A stretch of 64,000 nucleotides of DNA from Saccoglossus kowalevskii (taxonomy: Eukaryota; Hemichordata; Enteropneusta; Harrimaniidae): contig NW_003141966.1 in the NCBI RefSeq assembly GCF_000003605.2, positions 54,785-118,784 of the forward strand, given 5' to 3'. The notes below the pieces were generated by a model. It had not been told where the DNA came from, searched no databases, and saw nothing but the letters and a program-made list of their open reading frames with translations. Positions 1 to 9,050 of this stretch are shown piece by piece (within the stretch, counting starts at the first letter, position 1; each line of letters begins with the position of its first letter). A program made the position numbers and the translations under genes.

Positions 1-28
1 GAGACTGCCTGAGAAAACCAGCTGGGGA

Positions 29-37
29 TTTTTTTTT
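29..37 (+). repeat. Poly-T tract 1 (length-variable microsatellite)
   Basis: Nine T here. In other copies it runs from about 7 (units of the 22.9-33 kb block) to 11 (around 4799-4809), and it is interrupted once by an A near 26755. It differs in length even between neighbouring, otherwise very similar units, which fits replication slippage or sequencing error in homopolymers. Confidence 0.9.
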
Positions 38-51
38 GGTTTCATCACATA

Positions 52-66
52 CATATCAAAGATATG
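52..66. other. Perfect dyad CATATC-AAA-GATATG
   Basis: A 6-bp perfect inverted repeat with a 3-base AAA centre, in a fixed place between the two poly-T tracts of almost every unit. Rare broken copies are seen near 34403 (GATATAAG), 41072 (CAATCAAAG), 51543 (TTTCAAAG), 57294 (GATGTG) and 62072 (AACGATATG). It could fold as a small hairpin or bind a dimeric protein. There is no direct evidence for either. Confidence 0.8.
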
Positions 67-84
67 AGACAACGTTCGTGCATC

Positions 85-92
85 TTTTTTTT
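85..92 (+). repeat. Poly-T tract 2
   Basis: Eight T after GTGCATC, present in all copies with lengths of about 5-9 and occasional interruptions (TTTTTCTTC near 13456; CTTTATTTC near 59231; CTTTTGTTTC near 22050). Two 5-T runs follow at 110-114 and 161-165, making about 140 bp unusually rich in A/T tracts, which may be intrinsically bent. Confidence 0.85.
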
Positions 93-215
93 CACTGTGA
101 TGTTAATCATTTTTAGTAGAAAGACATGGAAATCTAGGCTTGTTTTCAAATTCATGAACATTTTTCAATTTCCCAATTATTTTCGGAGAACAAGTTGGTG
201 ACGCTGTCGGCACAT

Positions 216-394
216 AGTGGAGTTTGACCAGTTAACTTACCGTGAAAAGTCGTACAAAGTGAACGCAAAGTTGTGCAAAGTGATTACAAAGTTTGTAGAT
301 GTATTTGTATGTTTGACCTAAGTTGTTGGCATATAGAAACCCGCAATTGTAAAGTCACACAAATGAATAAAAGCGAGATGAAAACAGCCTATAT
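216..394 (+). repeat. Internal subunit A of the unit (about 178 bp)
   Basis: Positions 266-300 match 622-656 of subunit C at 31 of 35 bases without gaps, at an offset of 356 bp, which is twice 178. Its CGTGAAAAGTCGTAC leader parallels CCGAAAATCGAAGAC before C and CCGTAAAGATGATAG before B. Its ACCTAAGT at 316 parallels ACCTAAGT at 496 in B. I infer an ancient tandem duplication. Boundaries are approximate because they are projected from the offsets. Confidence 0.8.
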
Positions 395-441
395 TAGCAG
401 AGTACACATGAGCTGACTGACCGTAAAGATGATAGAAACAG

Positions 442-487
442 CATGCAAAGTTGATAAAAGCGTTCAAAACGTTGGCGGAGTTGCATG
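442..487. other. Inverted pair CATGCAA...TTGCATG
   Basis: CATGCAA at 442-448 and TTGCATG at 481-487 are perfect inverses separated by 32 bases that contain the palindrome AACGTT (468-473). Present in most units. It is broken in the third to fifth units, where the left arm reads CATGCTG or CATGCAG. It may be a fortuitous product of the two CATG-containing motifs. Confidence 0.5.
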
Positions 488-496
488 TATATATAA
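488..496 (+). other. TATATATAA run in subunit B
   Basis: Resembles a TATA element and is kept in nearly every unit. Exceptions are TATATACAA near 36732 and 41508, TATATAGCC near 19594, and one extra TA near 51015. No initiator, polyadenylation signal or stable reading frame follows, so a promoter function is only a possibility. It may merely belong to the well-conserved core. Confidence 0.4.
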
Positions 497-572
497 CCTA
501 AGTCATTGGAATGCCAACCCCGCAGTTAAATTTCGAAAACATTAAGTATATGTCTAGAAAATTCCCGATATG

Positions 573-750
573 TAAGCAGATTACCGCAACTGCGAACCGA
601 AAATCGAAGACAAACTGCTTACAAAGTTATGAAAAGCGATTGCAAAGTTTGTAGATTCGTTTGGCAATGTTACATATGATATTATATTGACGGGTTCCAT
701 AGTCAAAAGTTCGAAAACGTAAATACATATTTCGCACATTGCCGTTAAAG
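573..750 (+). repeat. Internal subunit C of the unit (about 178 bp)
   Basis: Closest internal relative of subunit A (31 of 35 bases over the core at 622-656). Leader TAAGCAG at 573, core ACAAAGTTATG at 621, tail TTCGAAAAC at 710. This part of the unit carries many of the subfamily-diagnostic substitutions (for example TAGATTCG or TAGAATCG; GACGGGTT or GACGGATT). Confidence 0.8.
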
Positions 751-879
751 TAGCGTACTATCACTCGGAGCATGTAGAGGTCATAGGTCAATTCAAGAAG
801 TTACTTGTACAAAAGCTATCAAGTTTAAAACAGTTTCAAAAATGAAATAGTCGCTAATTCGAGTGCATTTCAAATTACG
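751..879 (+). repeat. Internal subunit D, shortened
   Basis: TAGCG at 751 lies 177-178 bp after the equivalent TAAGCAG of C. GAAGTTAC and AAGTTT (821) align with AAAGTTAT and AAGTTT (645) of C at offset 176. After about position 850 the spacing shortens: TTCGAG at 857 and TAAGCAG at 880 lie closer than expected, so D looks internally deleted by roughly 50 bp. The identification is weaker than for A-C. Confidence 0.55.
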
Positions 880-1169
880 TAAGCAGTAGTGTGGGTAGGT
901 GAAGAGACCAAGTTTAAAGTTAAACTCAATCGGGCATGGTTAGTTCTTGCATGGGAGACTGCCTGAGAAAACCAGCTGGGGATTTTTTTTTGGTTTCATC
1001 ACATACATATCAAAGATATGAGACAACGTTCGTGCATCTTTTTTTTCACTGTGATGTTAATCATTTTTAGTAGAAAGACATGGAAATCTAGGCTTGTTTT
1101 CAAATTCATGAACATTTTTCAATTTCCCAATTATTTTCGGAGAACAAGTTGGTGACGCTGTCGGCACAT
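880..1169 (+). repeat. Diverged remainder, possibly two decayed subunits (E, F)
   Basis: TAAGCAG at 880 resembles the leader of subunit C. AAAGACATGGAAAT at about 1074 resembles the AAAGTTATGAAAAG core of C, 147 bp before the A core of the next unit. The 290 bp would fit two subunits of about 145 bp each, but similarity by eye is low. The segment includes both long poly-T tracts, the CATATC dyad and the GAGACTGCCT motif. Origin from the same monomer is a guess; it could instead be unrelated sequence captured before amplification. Confidence 0.3.
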
Positions 1170-1534
1170 AGTGGAGTTTGACCAGTTAACTTACCGTGAA
1201 AAGTCGTACAAAGTGAACGCAAAGTTGTGCAAAGTGATTACAAAGTTTGTAGATGTATTTGTATGTTTGACCTAAGTTGTTGGCATATAGAAACCCGCAA
1301 TTGTAAAGTCACACAAATGAATAAAAGCGAGATGAAAACAGCCTATATTAGCAGAGTACACATGAGCTGACTGACCGTAAAGATGATAGAAACAGCATGC
1401 AAAGTTGATAAAAGCGTTCAAAACGTTGGCGGAGTTGCATGTATATATAACCTAAGTCATTGGAATGCCAACCCCGCAGTTAAATTTCGAAAACATTAAG
1501 TATATGTCTAGAAAATTCCCGATATGTAAGCAGA

Positions 1535-1672
1535 TTATCGCAACTGCGAACCGAAAATCGAAGCCAAAATGCTTACAAAGTTATGAAAAGCGATTGCAAA
1601 GTTTGTAGAATCGTTTGGCAATGTTACATATGATATTATATTGACGGGTTCCATAGTGAAAAGTTCGAAAAT
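1535..1672 (+). repeat. S5-like patch inside an S1 unit (probable gene-conversion tract)
   Basis: Within unit 2 five neighbouring sites switch to the state typical of the 22-33 kb block: ATTATCGC, GCCAAAATGC, TAGAATCG, ATAGTGAAAAG and GAAAATGTAAA. Sites on both sides (GGCGGAG near 1428; CTCGGAGC near 1719) are back in the S1 state. The minimum tract is about 137 bp and the maximum about 290 bp. Confidence 0.6.
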
Positions 1673-4576
1673 GTAAATACATATTTCGCACATTGCCGTT
1701 AAAGTAGCGTACTATCACTCGGAGCATGTAGAGGTCATAGGTCAATTCAAGAAGTTACTTGTACAAAAGCTATCAAGTTTGAAACAGTTTCAAAAATGAA
1801 ATAGTCGCTAATTCGAGTGTATTTCAAATTACGTAAGCAGTAGTGTGGGTAGGTGAAGAGACCAAGTTTAAAGTTAAACTCAATCGGGCATGGTTAGTTC
1901 TTGCATGGGAGACTGCCTGAGAAAACCAGCTGGGGATTTTTTTTTGGTTTCATCACATACATATCAAAGATATGAGACAACGTTCGTGCATCTTTTTTTT
2001 CACTGTGATGTTAATCATTTTTAGTAGAAAGACATGGAAATCTAGGCTTGTTTTCAAATTCATGAACATTTTTCAATTTCCCAATTATTTTCGGAGAACA
2101 AGTTGGTGACGCTGTCGGCACATAGTGGAGTTTGACCAGTTAACTTACCGTGAAAAGTCGTACAAAGTGAACGCAAAGTTGTGCAAAGTGATTACAAAGT
2201 TTGTAGATGTATTTGTATGTTTGACCTAAGTTGTTGGCATATAGAAACCCGCAATTGTAAAGTCACACAAATGAATAAAAGCGAGATGAAAACAGCCTAT
2301 ATTAGCAGAGTATCACATGAGCTGACTGACCGTAAAGATGATAGAAACAGCATGCTGAGTTGATAAAAGCGTTCGAAACGTTGGCGGAGTTGCATGTATA
2401 TATAACCTAAGTCATTGGAATGCCAACCCCGCAGTTTAATTTCGAAAACATTAAGTATATGTCTAGAAAATTCCCGATATGTAAGCAGATTACCGCAACT
2501 GCGAACCGAAAATCGAAGACAAACTGCTTACAAAGTTATGAAAAGCGATTGCAAAGTTTGTAGATTCGTTTGGCAATGTTACATATGATATTATATTGAC
2601 GGGTTCCATAGTCAAAAGTTCGAAAACGTAAATACATATTTCGCACATTGCCGTTAAAGTAGCGTACTATCACTCGGAGCATGTAGAGGTCATAGGTCAA
2701 TTCAAGAAGTTACTTGTACAAAAGCTATCAAGTTTAAAACAGTTTCAAAAATGAAATAGTCGCTAATTCGAGTGTATTTCAAATTACGTAAGCAGTAGTG
2801 TGGGTAGGTGAAGAGACCAAGTTTAAAGTTAAACTCAATCGGGCATGGTTAGTTCTTGCATGGGAGACTGCCTAAGAAAACCAGCTGGGGATTTTTTTTT
2901 GGTTTCATCACATACATATCAAAGATATGAGACAACGTTCGTGCATCTTTTTTTTCACTGTGATGTTAATCATTTTTAGTAGAAAGACATGGAAATCTAG
3001 GCTTGTTTTCAAATTCATGAACATTTTTCAATTTCCCAATTATTTTCGGAGAACAAGTTGGTGACGCTGTCGGCACATAGTGGAGTTTGACCAGTTAACT
3101 TACCGTGAAAAGTCGTACAAAGTGAACGTAAAGTTGTGCAAAGTGATTACAAAGTTTGTAGATGTATTTGTATGTTTGACCTAAGTTGTTGGCATATAGA
3201 AACCCGCAATTGTAAAGTCACACAAATGAATAAAAGCGAGATGAAAACAGCCTATATTAGCAGAGTATCACATGAGCTGACTGACCGTAAAGATGATAGA
3301 AACAGCATGCAGAGTTGATAAAGCGTTCGAAACGTTGGCGGAGTTGCATGTATATATAACCTAAGTCACTGGAATGCCAACCCCACAGTTTAATTTCGAA
3401 AACATTAAGTATATGTCTAGAAAATTCCCGATATGTAAGCAGATTACCGCAACTGCGAACCGAAAATCGAAGACAAACTGCTTACAAAGTTATGAAAAGC
3501 GATTGCAAAGTTTGTAGATTCGTTTGGCAATGTTACATATGATATTATATTGACGGGTTCCATAGTCAAAAGTTCGAAAACGTAAATACATATTTCGCAC
3601 ATTGCCGTTAAAGTAGCGTACTATCACTCGGAGCATGTAGAGGTCATAGGTCAATTCAAGAAGTTACTTGTACAAAAGCTATCAAGTTTAAAACAGTTTC
3701 AAAAATGAAATAGTCGCTAATTCGAGTGTATTTCAAATTACGTAAGCAGTAGTGTGGGTAGGTGAAGAGACCAAGTTTAAAGTTAAACTCAATCGGGCAT
3801 GGTTAGTTCTTGCATGGGAGACTGCCTGAGAAAACCAGCTGGGGATTTTTTTTTTGGTTTCATCACATACATATCAAAGATATGAGACAACGTTCGTGCA
3901 TCTTTTTTTTCACTGTGATGTTAATCATTTTTAGTAGAAAGACATGGAAATCTAGGCTTGTTTTCAAATTCATGAACATTTTTCAATTTCCCAATTATTT
4001 TCGGAGAACAAGTTGGTGACGCTGTCGGCACATAGTGGAGTTTGACCAGTTAACTTACCGTGAAAAGTCGTACAAAGTGAACGCAAAGTTGTGCAAAGTG
4101 ATTACAAAGTTTGTAGATGTATTTGTATGTTTGACCTAAGTTGTTGGCATATAGAAACCCGCAATTGTAAAGTCACACAAATGAATAAAAGCGAGATGAA
4201 AACAGCCTATATTAGCAGAGTATCACATGAGCTGACTGACCGTAAAGATGATAGAAACAGCATGCAGAGTTGATAAAAGCGTTCGAAACGTTGGCGGAAT
4301 TGCATGTATATATAACCTAAGCCATTGGAATGCCAACCCCGCAGTTTAATTTCGAAAACATTAAGTATATGTCTAGAAAATTCCCGATATGTAAGCAGAT
4401 TACCGCAACTGCGACCCGAAAATCGAAGACAAACTGCTTACAAAGTTATGAAAGCGATTGCAAAGTTTGTAGATTCGTTTGGCAATGTTACATATGATAT
4501 TATATTGACGGTTTCATAGTCAAAGTTCGAAAACGTAAATACATATTTCGCACATTGCCGTTAAAGTAGCGTACTA

Positions 4577-7500
4577 TCAGTCGGAGCATGTATAGGTCAT
4601 AGGTCAATTCAAGAAGTCACTTGTACAAACGCTATCAAGTTTAAAACAGTTTCAAAAATGAAATAGCCGCCAGTTCGAGTATATTTCAAATTACGTAAGC
4701 AGGAGTGTGTGTAGTTGAAGAGACAAAGTTTAAAGTTAAGCTCAATCGGGCATGGTTAGTTCTTGCATGGGAGACTGCCTGAAAAAAACAGCCGGGGATT
4801 TTTTTTTTTGATTTCATCACTTACATATCAAAGATATGAGACAACGTTCGTGCATCTTTTTTTCACTGTGATGTAAATTATTTTTAGTAGAAAGAAATGG
4901 AAATTTAGGCTTGTTTCCAAATTCATGAACATTTTTCCAATTTCCCTATTATTTTCGGAGATCAAGTTGGTGACGCTGTCGGCACATAGTGGGGTTTGAC
5001 CTGTTAAGTTACTGTGAAAAGTCGTACAAAGTGAACGCAAAGTTGTGCAAAGTGATCACAAAGTTTGTAGATGTATTTGTATGTTTGCCCTAAGTTGTTG
5101 GCATTTAGAAACCCGCAATTGTAAAGTCAAACAAATGAATAAAAGCGAGATGAAAACAGCCTATATTAACAGAGTAACACATGAGCTGACTGACCGTAAA
5201 GATGATAGAAACACAATGCAAAGTTGATAAAAGCGTTCAAAACGTTGGCGGAGTTGCATGTATATATAACCTAAGTCATTGCAATGCCAACCCCGCAGTT
5301 AAATTTCGAAAACATTAAGTATATGTCTAGAAAATTCCCGATATGTAAGCAGATTATCGCCACTGCGAACCGAAAATCGAAGACAAAATGCTTACAATGT
5401 TATAAAAAGCGATTGCAAAGTTTGTAGATTCGTTTGGCAATGTTACATATGATATTATATTGACGGGTTCCATAGTCAAAAGTTCGAAAACGAAAGTACA
5501 TATTTCGCACATTGCCGTTAAAGTAGCGTACTATCAGTCGGAGCATGTATAGGTCATAGGTCAATTCAAGAAGTCACTTGTACAAACGCTATCAAGTTTA
5601 AAACAGTTTCAAAAATGAAATAGCCGCCAGTTCGAGTATATTTCAAATTACGTAAGCAGGAGTGTGGGTAGTTGAAGAGACAAAGTTTAAAGTTAAGCTC
5701 AATCGGGCATGGTTAGTTCTTGCATTGGAGACTGCCTGAAAAAAACAGCCGGGGATTTTTTTTTTGTTTTCATCACTTACATATCAAAGATATGAGACAA
5801 CGTTCGTGCATCTTTTTTTCACTGTGATGTAAATTATTTTTAGTAGAAAGAAATGGAAATTTAGGCTTGTTTCCAAATTCATGAACATTTTTCCAATTTC
5901 CCTATTATTTTCGGAGATCAAGTTGGTGACGCTGTCGGCACATAGTGGGGTTTGACCTGTTAAGTTACCGTGAAAAGTCGTACAAAGTGAACGCAAAGTT
6001 GTGCAAAGTGATCACAAAGTTTGTAGATGTATTTGTATGTTTGCCCTAAGTTGTTGGCATATAGAAACCCGCAATTGTAAAGTCAAACAAATGAATAAAA
6101 GCGAGATGAAAACAGCCTATATTAACAGAATATCACATGAGCTGACTGACCGTAAAGATGATAGAAACAGCATGCAAAGTTGATAAAAGCGTTCAAAACG
6201 TTGGCGGAGTTGCATGTATATATAACCTAAGTCATTGCAATGCCAACCCCGCAGTTAAATTTCGAAAACATTAAATATATGTCTAGAAAATTCCCGATAT
6301 GTAAGCAGATTATCGCCACTGCGAACCGAAAATCGAAGACAAACTGCTTACAAAGTTATAAAAAGCGATTGCAAAGTTTGTAGATTCGTTTGGCAATGTT
6401 ACATATGATATTATATTGACGGGTTCCATAGTCAAAAGTTCGAAAACGAAAGTACATATTTCGCACATTGCCGTTAAAGTAGCGTACTATCAGTCGGAGC
6501 ATGTATAGGTCATAGGTCAATTCAAGAAGTCACTTGTACAAACGCTATCAAGTTTAAAACAGTTTCAAAAATGAAATAGCCGCCAGTTCGAGTATATTTC
6601 AAATTACGTAAGCAGGAGTGTGGGTAGTTGAAGAGACAAAGTTTAAAGTTAAGCTCAATCGGGCATGGTTAGTTCTTGCATGGGAGACTGCCTGAAAAAA
6701 ACAGCCGGGTATTTTTTTTTTGATTTCATCACTTACATATCAAAGATATGAGACAACGTTCGTGCATCTTTTTTCACTGTGATGTAAATTATTTTTAGTA
6801 GAAAGAAATGGAAATTTAGGCTTGTTTCCAAATTCATGAACATTTTTCCAATTTCCCTATTATTTTCGGAGATCAAGTTGGTGACGCTGTCGGCACATAG
6901 TGGGGTTTGACCTGTTAAGTTACCGTGAAAAGTCGTACAAAGTGAACGCAAAGTTGTGCAAAGTGATCACAAAGTTTGTAGATGTATTTGTATGTTTGCC
7001 CTAAGTTGTTGGCATATAGAAACCCGCAATTGTAAAGTCAAACAAATGAATAAAAGCGAGATGAAAACAGCCTATATTAACAGAATATCACATGAGCTGA
7101 CTGACCGTAAAGATGATAGAAACAGCATGCAAAGTTGATAAAAGCGTTCAAAACGTTGGCGGAGTTGCATGTATATATAACCTAAGTCATTGCAATGCCA
7201 ACCCCGCAGTTAAATTTCGAAAACATTAAGTATATGTCTAGAAAATTCCCGATATGTAAGCAGATTATCGCCACTGCGAACCGAAAATCGAAGACAAACT
7301 GCTTATAAAGTTATAAAAAGCGATTGCAAAGTTTGTAGATTCGTTTGGCAATGTTACATATGATATTATATTGACGGGTTCCATAGTCAAAAGTTCGAAA
7401 ACGTAAATATATATTTCGCACATTGCCGTTAAAGTAGCGTACTATCAGTCGGAGCATGTATAGGTCATAGGTCAATTCAAGAAGTCACTTGCACAAACGC

Positions 7501-9050
7501 TATCAAGTTTAAAACAGTTTCAAAAATGAAATAGCCGCCAGTTCGAATATATTTCAAATTACGTAAGCAGGAGTGTGTGTAGTTGAAGAGACAAAGTTTA
7601 AAGTTAAGCTCAATCGGGCATGGTTAGTTCTTGCATGGGAGACTGCCTGAAAAAAACAGCCGGGGATATTTTTTTTTTGATTTCATCACTTACATATCAA
7701 AGATATGAGACAACGTTCGTGCATCTTTTTTTCACTGTGATGTAAATTATTTTTAGTAGAAAGAAATGGAAATTTAGGCTTGTTTCCAAATTCATGAACA
7801 TTTTTCCAATTTCCCTATTATTTTCGGAGATCAAGTTGGTGACGCTGTCGGCACATAGTGGGGTTTGACCTGTTAAGTTACTGTGAAAAGTCGTACAAAG
7901 TGAACGCAAAGTTGTGCAAAGTGATCACAAAGTTTGTAGATGTATTTGTATGTTTGCCCTAAGTTGTTGGCATATAGAAACCCGCAATTGTAAATTCAAA
8001 CAAATGAATAAAAGCGAGATGAAAACAGCCTATATTAACAGAGTAACACATGAGCTGACTGACCGTAAAGATGATAGAAACAGCATGCAAAGTTGATAAA
8101 AGCGTTCAAAACGTTGGCGGAGTTGCATGTATATATAACCTAAGTCATTGCAATGCCAACCCCGCAGTTAAATTTCGAAAACATTAAGTATATGTCTAGA
8201 AAATTCCCGATATGTAAGCAGATTATCGCCACTGCGAACCGAAAATCGAAGAAAAACTGCTTACAAAGTTATAAAAAGCGATTGCAAAGTTTGTAGATTC
8301 GTTTGGCAATGTTACATATGATATTATATTGACGGGTTCCATAGTCAAAAGTTCGAAAACGTAAATATATATTTCGCACATTGCCGTTAAAGTAGCGTAC
8401 TATCAGTCGGAGCATGTATAGGTCATAGGTCAATTCAAGAAGTCACTTGTACAAACGCTATCAAGTTTAAAACAGTTTCAAAAATGAAATAGCCGCCAGT
8501 TCGAGTATATTTCAAATTACGTAAGCAGGAGTGTGTGTAGTTGAAGAGACAAAGTTTAAAGTTAAGCTCAATCGGGCATGGTTAGTTCTTGCATGGGAGA
8601 CTGCCTGAAAAAAACAGCCGGGGATTTTTTTTTTGATTTCATCACTTACATATCAAAGATATGAGACAACGTTCGTGCATCTTTTTTTCACTGTGATGTA
8701 AATTATTTTTAGTAGAAAGAAATGGAAATTTAGGCTTGTTTCCAAATTCATGAACATTTTTCCAATTTCCCTATTATTTTCGGAGATCAAGTTGGTGACG
8801 CTGTCGGCACATAGTGGGGTTTGACCTGTTAAGTTACTGTGAAAAGTCGTACAAAGTGAACGCAAAGTTGTGCAAAGTGATCACAAAGTTTGTAGATGTA
8901 TTTGTATGTTTGCCCTAAGTTGTTGGCATATAGAAACCCGCAATTGTAAATTCAAACAAATGAATAAAAGCGAGATGAAAACAGCCTATATTAACAGAGT
9001 AACACATGAGCTGACTGACCGTAAAGATGATAGAAACAGCATGCAAAGTC
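4577..9050 (+). repeat. Block of subfamily S2 (units 6-10)
   Basis: The most distinct subfamily: CTGAAAAAAACAGCCGGGG, CATCACTTAC, GTTTCCAAATTC, GATCAAGTTGG, GTGGGGTTTGACC, GTTAAGTTA, GTGATCACAAAG, TTGCCCTAAG, ATTGCAATGCC, CGCCACTG, TTATAAAAAG, CAGTCGGAGC, CAAACGCT and AGCCGCCAG. Units are 953-958 bp. The change to S3 occurs inside unit 10, between AGAAACAGC near 9032 and TTGGAATGCC near 9103. Confidence 0.85.

Follow-up and report, generated by a model that had tools for sequence, protein, structure and literature searches.

The DNA considered here raises the question of what a long tandem repeat of Saccoglossus kowalevskii is built from and how it arose. The window, by which we mean the whole stretch of 64,000 nucleotides analysed (positions 1-64000, plus strand), proved to be a head-to-tail array of a unit of about 954 bp, in which 68 anchors were located and 67 units were cut; these units showed a mean pairwise identity of 95.4% and were used to build the consensus of the window unit. 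The window represents the last 64 kb of contig C3309 (118,784 bp), and the array extends over the whole contig, with 124 anchors in monomer M1. The first full unit of the contig (1-1060) was 91% identical to the consensus and carried many single-base insertions, resembling an unpolished contig end. The initial annotation had described the 954-bp unit as composed of subunits of about 177 bp, in the manner of alpha satellite. Dissection of the unit returned the following features, where T1, T2 and T3 denote sequence groups of the satellite, T1 being the form found in C3309:

236..416 (second unit 1190-1370), plus strand: monomer M1, supported by the M1xM2 and M1xM3 alignments
417..595, plus strand: monomer M2, supported by the M2xM3 alignment
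596..773, plus strand: monomer M3, which contains the 30-column stretch best conserved from T1 to T3 (0 differences)
774..916, plus strand: segment D, which separates M3 from the 5S-like piece, with no monomer similarity detected
917..974, plus strand: 5S rRNA-derived piece, 5S nt 49-106, matching at 48/58 positions in the first window copy and 49/58 in the consensus
917-965, plus strand: type I internal control region (ICR), 5S nt 49-97, within the 5S-derived piece
983..991, plus strand: T9 tract after the 5S-like piece, similar to a pol III terminator
992..1189, plus strand: segment U, which links the T tract to the following M1, with no monomer similarity detected

Three monomers were recognised within the unit. 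In the 67-unit consensus M1 aligned with M2 at 114/178 positions (lag 182) and with M3 at 113/180 (lag 358), while M2 and M3 agreed at 102/168 (lag 176), giving pairwise identities of 61-64%. None of 1000 dinucleotide shuffles reached any of the three scores, and the self-alignment above shuffled sequence that the initial annotation had expected was thus obtained for each monomer pair. The short anchor motifs cited for the nested periodicity all occurred at the positions quoted, and the match of the copies called A and C at 31/35 core bases was confirmed; however, some anchors had been selected, as the first 954 bases contain eight CAAAG and four AAGTTT and TAAGCAG also occurs at 880.

No fourth monomer was detected on either side of this block. 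In segment D after M3, where AAGTTT is found at 821, the best score was obtained against M2 and was reached by 67/1000 shuffles, and in the segment tested before M1 (M0, consisting of U without its first ~18 bases) the best score was obtained against M3 and was reached by 190/1000. An apparent extension of the monomers upstream of M1 in a smoothed scan was an artefact, the 150-bp queries having reached into M1. Side diagonals were accordingly present at about 177 and 355 bp and not detected at about 530 bp, where a fourth copy would be required. The proposed construction from ~177-bp subunits therefore holds for the three monomers (~538 bp, ~56% of the unit) and fails for the remaining ~415 bp (~44%).

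Higher-order repeats of alpha satellite are integer multiples of one monomer. A repeat of this kind, formed by a centromeric monomer of ~177 bp with the remainder consisting of diverged monomers, would account for three real monomers in register and for units that are nearly identical while their monomers are well diverged. Alpha satellite likewise carries head-to-tail, diverged, nucleosome-sized monomers in a long unit homogenised as a whole; a definition of higher-order repeats is given in PMC4053949. However, the monomer length does not divide 954 evenly, the segments on either side of the M1-M3 block do not rise above chance against the monomers, and part of the remainder is 5S-derived. 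Since the unit consists of three monomers plus other sequence that is either 5S-derived or unrelated, rather than of an integer number of monomers, and since that other sequence includes a decayed 5S gene, the likeness to a plain alpha-type higher-order repeat drawn by the initial annotation was not upheld, and we regard this explanation as very improbable.

Helically phased A-tracts bend DNA, and the monomers bear such a signal. The AAA periodicity of 10.5 bp in M1-M3 was reached by 0/500, 3/500 and 0/500 shuffles for the consensus of T1, T2 and T3 respectively, while the rest of the unit showed no such phasing (403/500, 263/500 and 346/500). The AA/TT and AAA/TTT signals were weaker than that of AAA and peaked partly at other periods. 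Because phased A-tracts bend DNA, the ~180-bp monomers may favour regular nucleosomes. A CENP-B box was also searched for and occurred at chance level (core 7/9, equalled or beaten in 132/200 shuffles). The most abundant tandem repeat is treated as the prime centromere candidate, with exceptions listed, in the available text of PMC4053949; a centromeric role of the present satellite is our guess.

The origin of part of the remaining sequence was indicated by a comparison with the 5S rRNA gene of the same genome. An ungapped match to nt 49-106 of this gene was found in the consensus of C3309 (49/58), T2 (48) and T3 (45), and in C3309 the alignment extended along the 5S gene and its 3' flank into the T tract (59/75). 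Aligned to the unit, the 119-nt 5S gene scored 80, against a maximum of 32 among 1000 shuffles, and the satellite therefore contains a part homologous to the species' own 5S gene. The Rfam 5S model gave a weak match on a 251-bp stretch, confined to nt 71-106 (E 3.9), amid three other matches that we take to be due to chance, and an Rfam scan of window positions 1-8000 returned nothing at E 1. ARAGORN detected no tRNA in the window, so that a tRNA-type promoter was discarded, and no phage relatives of the window were found.

The 5' part of the gene was far less evident. Nucleotides 1-22 were not recognisable in the 19 units examined, and nt 23-48 were suggestive in two of them by a local test, C525 (1/500 shuffles) and C829b (35/500), where the 5S match is interrupted by an 11-bp insertion and resumes upstream of it as far as nt 23; in the remaining 17 units, T1 included, the match to nt 23-48 was equalled by at least 167/500 shuffles. 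When nt 1-48 were submitted to the local test as a whole, 477/500 shuffles did as well as the T1 consensus and 1/500 as well as C525, in which the end of D resembles nt 23-48. An end-anchored test of the 5' half in 17 units gave 4 for C525, 7 for C482, 17 for C124, 19 for C829b, 23 for C1067 and 291 for T1, all out of 300 shuffles; the local test of the 5' half backs C525, backs C829b weakly, and backs no other unit. The unit does not hold the complete gene that a functional 5S rDNA cluster would have and, because the 5' part is unrecognisable in most units, the piece is a decayed, incomplete 5S gene.

Genuine 5S genes of the same genome were located with RF00001 on contigs C3485, C2212 and C3801 (47 scored matches), and the satellite is distinct from these functional clusters, whose spacers are unlike the satellite unit. 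The genuine genes occur in two repeat types, of ~1139 and ~1579 bp. A pair of spacers that we compared showed its best similarity over the first ~188 bp (123/201, score 80, versus a maximum of 44 in 30 shuffles), and the motif AGAGGGCGC was present in both. The C2212 spacer, belonging to the 1.58-kb repeat, includes internal sub-repeats (~9 x 44 bp, or 4.5 x 88 bp), while no such sub-repeats were found in the C3485 spacer. Compared with the satellite unit, the two genuine spacers showed no similarity beyond 30 shuffles; as neither resembles the unit, we can only infer a descent of the monomers, D and U from a 5S spacer.

With moderate confidence, we interpret the unit as a composite satellite derived from 5S rDNA, namely the decayed and amplified form of a 5S repeat whose spacer was sub-repeated. 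The ancestral 5S rDNA repeat would have comprised the gene and a spacer holding three ~180-bp sub-repeats; it would then have lost gene function, and the whole decayed repeat would have been amplified by unequal exchange and conversion. The resulting satellite might now be structural DNA of (peri)centromeric or other heterochromatic nature, in which the monomers, curved by their phased A-tracts, would promote regular nucleosomes and act as registers for exchange, and the 5S piece would be mostly a relic, with some weak TFIIIA/TFIIIC binding perhaps left in some arrays. This interpretation is favoured by the finding that the genuine C2212 spacer is itself sub-repeated and that no stand-alone monomer array was seen; against it, the C3485 spacer lacks sub-repeats and those of C2212 measure 44/88 bp rather than ~180 bp.

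The same spacers also speak for a different origin, in which a 5S pseudogene, or a retroposon headed by 5S sequence, became fused to an independent trimer of a ~180-bp satellite before the resulting chimera was amplified as a new unit. Composite satellite units made of unrelated parts are common, and nothing in their sequence ties M, D and U to the two genuine 5S spacers, one of which is devoid of sub-repeats while the other has only the short ones. On the other hand, exact-core patterns revealed no array made of monomers alone, and the 5S piece lies in gene orientation before a T-rich tract in T1, T2, T3 and most of 10 aligned units. We consider the chimeric origin rather unlikely.

The distribution of the repeat bears on both origins. 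Genome-wide, an exact pattern of the M1/M3 core, from which M2-like or diverged monomers would escape, revealed no stand-alone monomer array. Two exact 12-base M1/M3 cores at 150-180 bp from each other produced one match in the genome, C2256:59370-59552. Here a single M1 has been duplicated within a composite array; the duplication measures 171 bp (97% matches by TRF), and its breakpoints, read by eye, fall at the homologous starts of M1 and M2. Direct comparison of the two successive 171-bp blocks gave 128/171, lower than the TRF value because the second block runs into M2. Among 100 matches listed of 2344 for the M1 core, 88 of 91 neighbour spacings fitted multiples of the unit; the three exceptions were 171, 665 and 1607. 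SINE3 elements are SINEs headed by 5S sequence and would be expected as dispersed single copies; instead, 87 of 90 neighbour spacings of the 5S-like core fitted unit multiples (100 matches listed of 4255), and C203 and C820, the two contigs listed at one place each, were likewise found to contain arrays.

Across the 572-Mb genome, pattern counts ranged from 692 to 4255 according to the segment searched, with 692 matches for an M2 marker of T1/T2 type, 1840 for D, 2344 for the M1 core and 4255 for the 5S-like core; the last figure should take in genuine 5S genes, which show two differences from the pattern. Reversed-pattern controls returned 0 matches for each of these segments. The counts suggest roughly 2,300-4,200 assembled copies of the satellite, or 2-4 Mb. 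As a tandem, highly repeated, non-coding unit, the sequence corresponds in this respect to a 5S rDNA-derived satellite.

At least two deep groups of the satellite exist in the genome, T1/T2 and T3-like, with ~76% identity between them (77% for T1 against T3). The T2 form is represented by fetched stretches of C275, C859 and C880, also in array, with 87-93% identity to the C3309 consensus by BLAST; its own consensus agrees with that of C3309 (T1) at 93% without gaps. T3 was defined on a fetched 30.7 kb of C2256, made mostly of ~940-bp units (74-77% identity), and short stretches from nine further contigs were 81-96% identical to T3, with 78-80% for an additional piece of C203. A short degraded array (78-91% to T3) was observed at ~451.7-455.5 kb inside the 531-kb contig C203, within the fetched region C203:450800-457300; no T1-T3 match occurred in the fetched 898 bp before this array or in ~1.8 kb after it. 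The order M1-M2-M3-D-5S-U was identical in T1, T2 and T3, and like monomers of T1 and T3 agreed better (M1-M1 0.82, M2-M2 0.80, M3-M3 0.79) than unlike ones (0.62-0.75). As this order is shared and each monomer of T1 has its orthologue in T3, the composite is older than the split of the groups, and these data support the earlier proposal that a nucleosome-sized monomer was copied in tandem before the whole unit was amplified.

Signs of exchange were evident within the arrays. In C3309 the mean difference between units rose from 0.022 at lag 1 to 0.036 at lag 60, neighbours being more alike than distant units. A superperiod among units was considered and rejected, as the difference rises over lags 1-11 and is then nearly flat, with no sharp dip among the printed lags; the identity of window units showed a shallow, broad rise around lags 14-25. 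Two C3309 units, v014 (13749) and v018 (17264), separated by three full units, share the same 309-bp deletion. It runs from the final 76 bp of M3 through D and the 5S piece into the beginning of U, and this variant was probably spread by exchange. Contig C257 (889 kb) ends in diverged, rearranged units of the satellite, with an array edge at C257:887988, and no match to T1-T3 was found in the 788 bp before them. The duplication in C2256, the shared deletion and the likeness of neighbours would be explained by ordinary satellite dynamics, that is unequal exchange and conversion.

The presence of an ICR followed by a T tract suggests a further possibility, a living pol III array in which the 5S-like piece acts as a working internal promoter for a short non-coding RNA that would terminate in the T tract. 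The limits of the ICR in the piece (box A, IE, box C) are those we take to apply to a type I promoter. Between T1 and T3 the ICR differed at 6/49 positions, versus 30/164 for M1, 39/183 for M2, 40/175 for M3, 37/143 for D and 59/195 for U, the most diverged segment; between T1 and T2 it differed at 1/49. A 12-unit set was set aside for this analysis in favour of T1-T3 and a ten-unit set, since nine of its 12 contigs came from listed ICR matches and its conservation was thus biased. The ten units, not chosen through the ICR, comprised seven of eight fetched stretches, the eighth being too short, together with T1-T3; both sets lean towards the T3-like group (10/12 and 8/10 units). The 49-bp ICR window ranked 15/868 in the ten units and belongs, with the M3 core, to the parts of the unit that are best conserved from group to group. 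In T1 versus T3 it ranked only 68/962, the M3 core being the best; because windows overlap, these ranks are descriptive and do not represent probabilities.

Within a single array the picture was different. Over 119 units of C3309 the 5S-like piece had the highest pi (0.057), versus 0.018-0.024 for M1 and M2, 0.034 for M3, 0.048 for D and 0.039 for U; the monomer block as a whole showed 0.0255 against 0.0454 for the rest, a contrast to be read in the light of the 42/954 circular shifts that do as well. Furthermore, an indel interrupts the ICR in four of the ten aligned units (C1195, C1338a, C743b and C482b), and the two deleted C3309 units lack the piece altogether. We consequently lean towards the 5S piece being a relic rather than selected, and a living pol III array appears improbable to us. 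Equally improbable is a related proposal, according to which the ICR would be kept as a dock for TFIIIA/TFIIIC, perhaps pol III, once per ~954 bp beside three curved nucleosome-sized monomers; the unit would then combine, as a (peri)centromeric module, a binding site for pol III factors and a nucleosome ladder of fixed spacing.

A separate observation concerns the mitochondrial contig C4830 (17,037 bp). COX1 lies on the minus strand (L033:3520-4866), while ATP6, COX2, COX3, ND1, ND3, ND4L, ND4, ND5 and COB are on the plus strand; the 16S gene is followed by a 374-aa ORF and then ND1, nd5 adjoins cob, and nd6 and a minus-strand tRNA come after trnP. Over 449 codons of COX1, ATA faced I five times, V twice, L once and never M in the reference, the single AAA faced K, and neither AGA nor AGG occurred. 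According to the available portion of PMC2697986, ATA=Ile is common to echinoderms and hemichordates, AAA=Asn is specific to echinoderms, and the two hemichordates share the nd5-cob adjacency with birds and with Xenoturbella, whose code does not include the ATA change. Codon use and gene order of C4830 thus indicate a hemichordate, most likely an acorn worm. The same portion states that in Balanoglossus no protein gene other than nd6 lies on the minus strand, and the placement of COX1 in C4830 therefore suggests either a derived gene order or an effect of the assembly.

Satellites derived from 5S rDNA have been found in other animals. A first example is 5SHindIII of Hoplias malabaricus, reportedly described by Martins in 2006. 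This fish satellite, 5SHindIII/HmaSat03, is likewise a 5S-derived tandem repeat in the available text of PMC11369246. The same text names another satellite, HmaSat05, as the more likely centromere candidate in that species, which calls for caution in assuming a function for a 5S-derived satellite. PcP190 of hyloid frogs (PMC4201667, PMC11675491) is also a tandem satellite with a 5S-like and a non-5S part and several sequence types; in the available parts of these sources its unit measures 190 bp with a 120-bp 5S-like region and is described without a trimer of nucleosome-sized sub-repeats, whereas the hemichordate unit measures ~954 bp, is clearly 5S-like only from nt 49 and contains M1-M3. 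No description of a hemichordate satellite was found among the open-access papers listed by our searches, although the print literature may hold one, and the available main text of a paper on two hemichordate genomes (PMC11175523) contains neither "satellite" nor "5S rRNA". On our best reading, the present unit is a further variant of the known 5S-derived satellites and not an integer multimer of alpha type.

The origin of a large satellite family in a deuterostome lineage may therefore be readable from its sequence, as a housekeeping-gene repeat turned satellite. The unit also helps to distinguish an alpha-like higher-order repeat from a repeat of gene origin with nucleosome-sized sub-repeats, two structures that are readily mistaken for each other, and makes the binding of pol III factors at a satellite directly testable.
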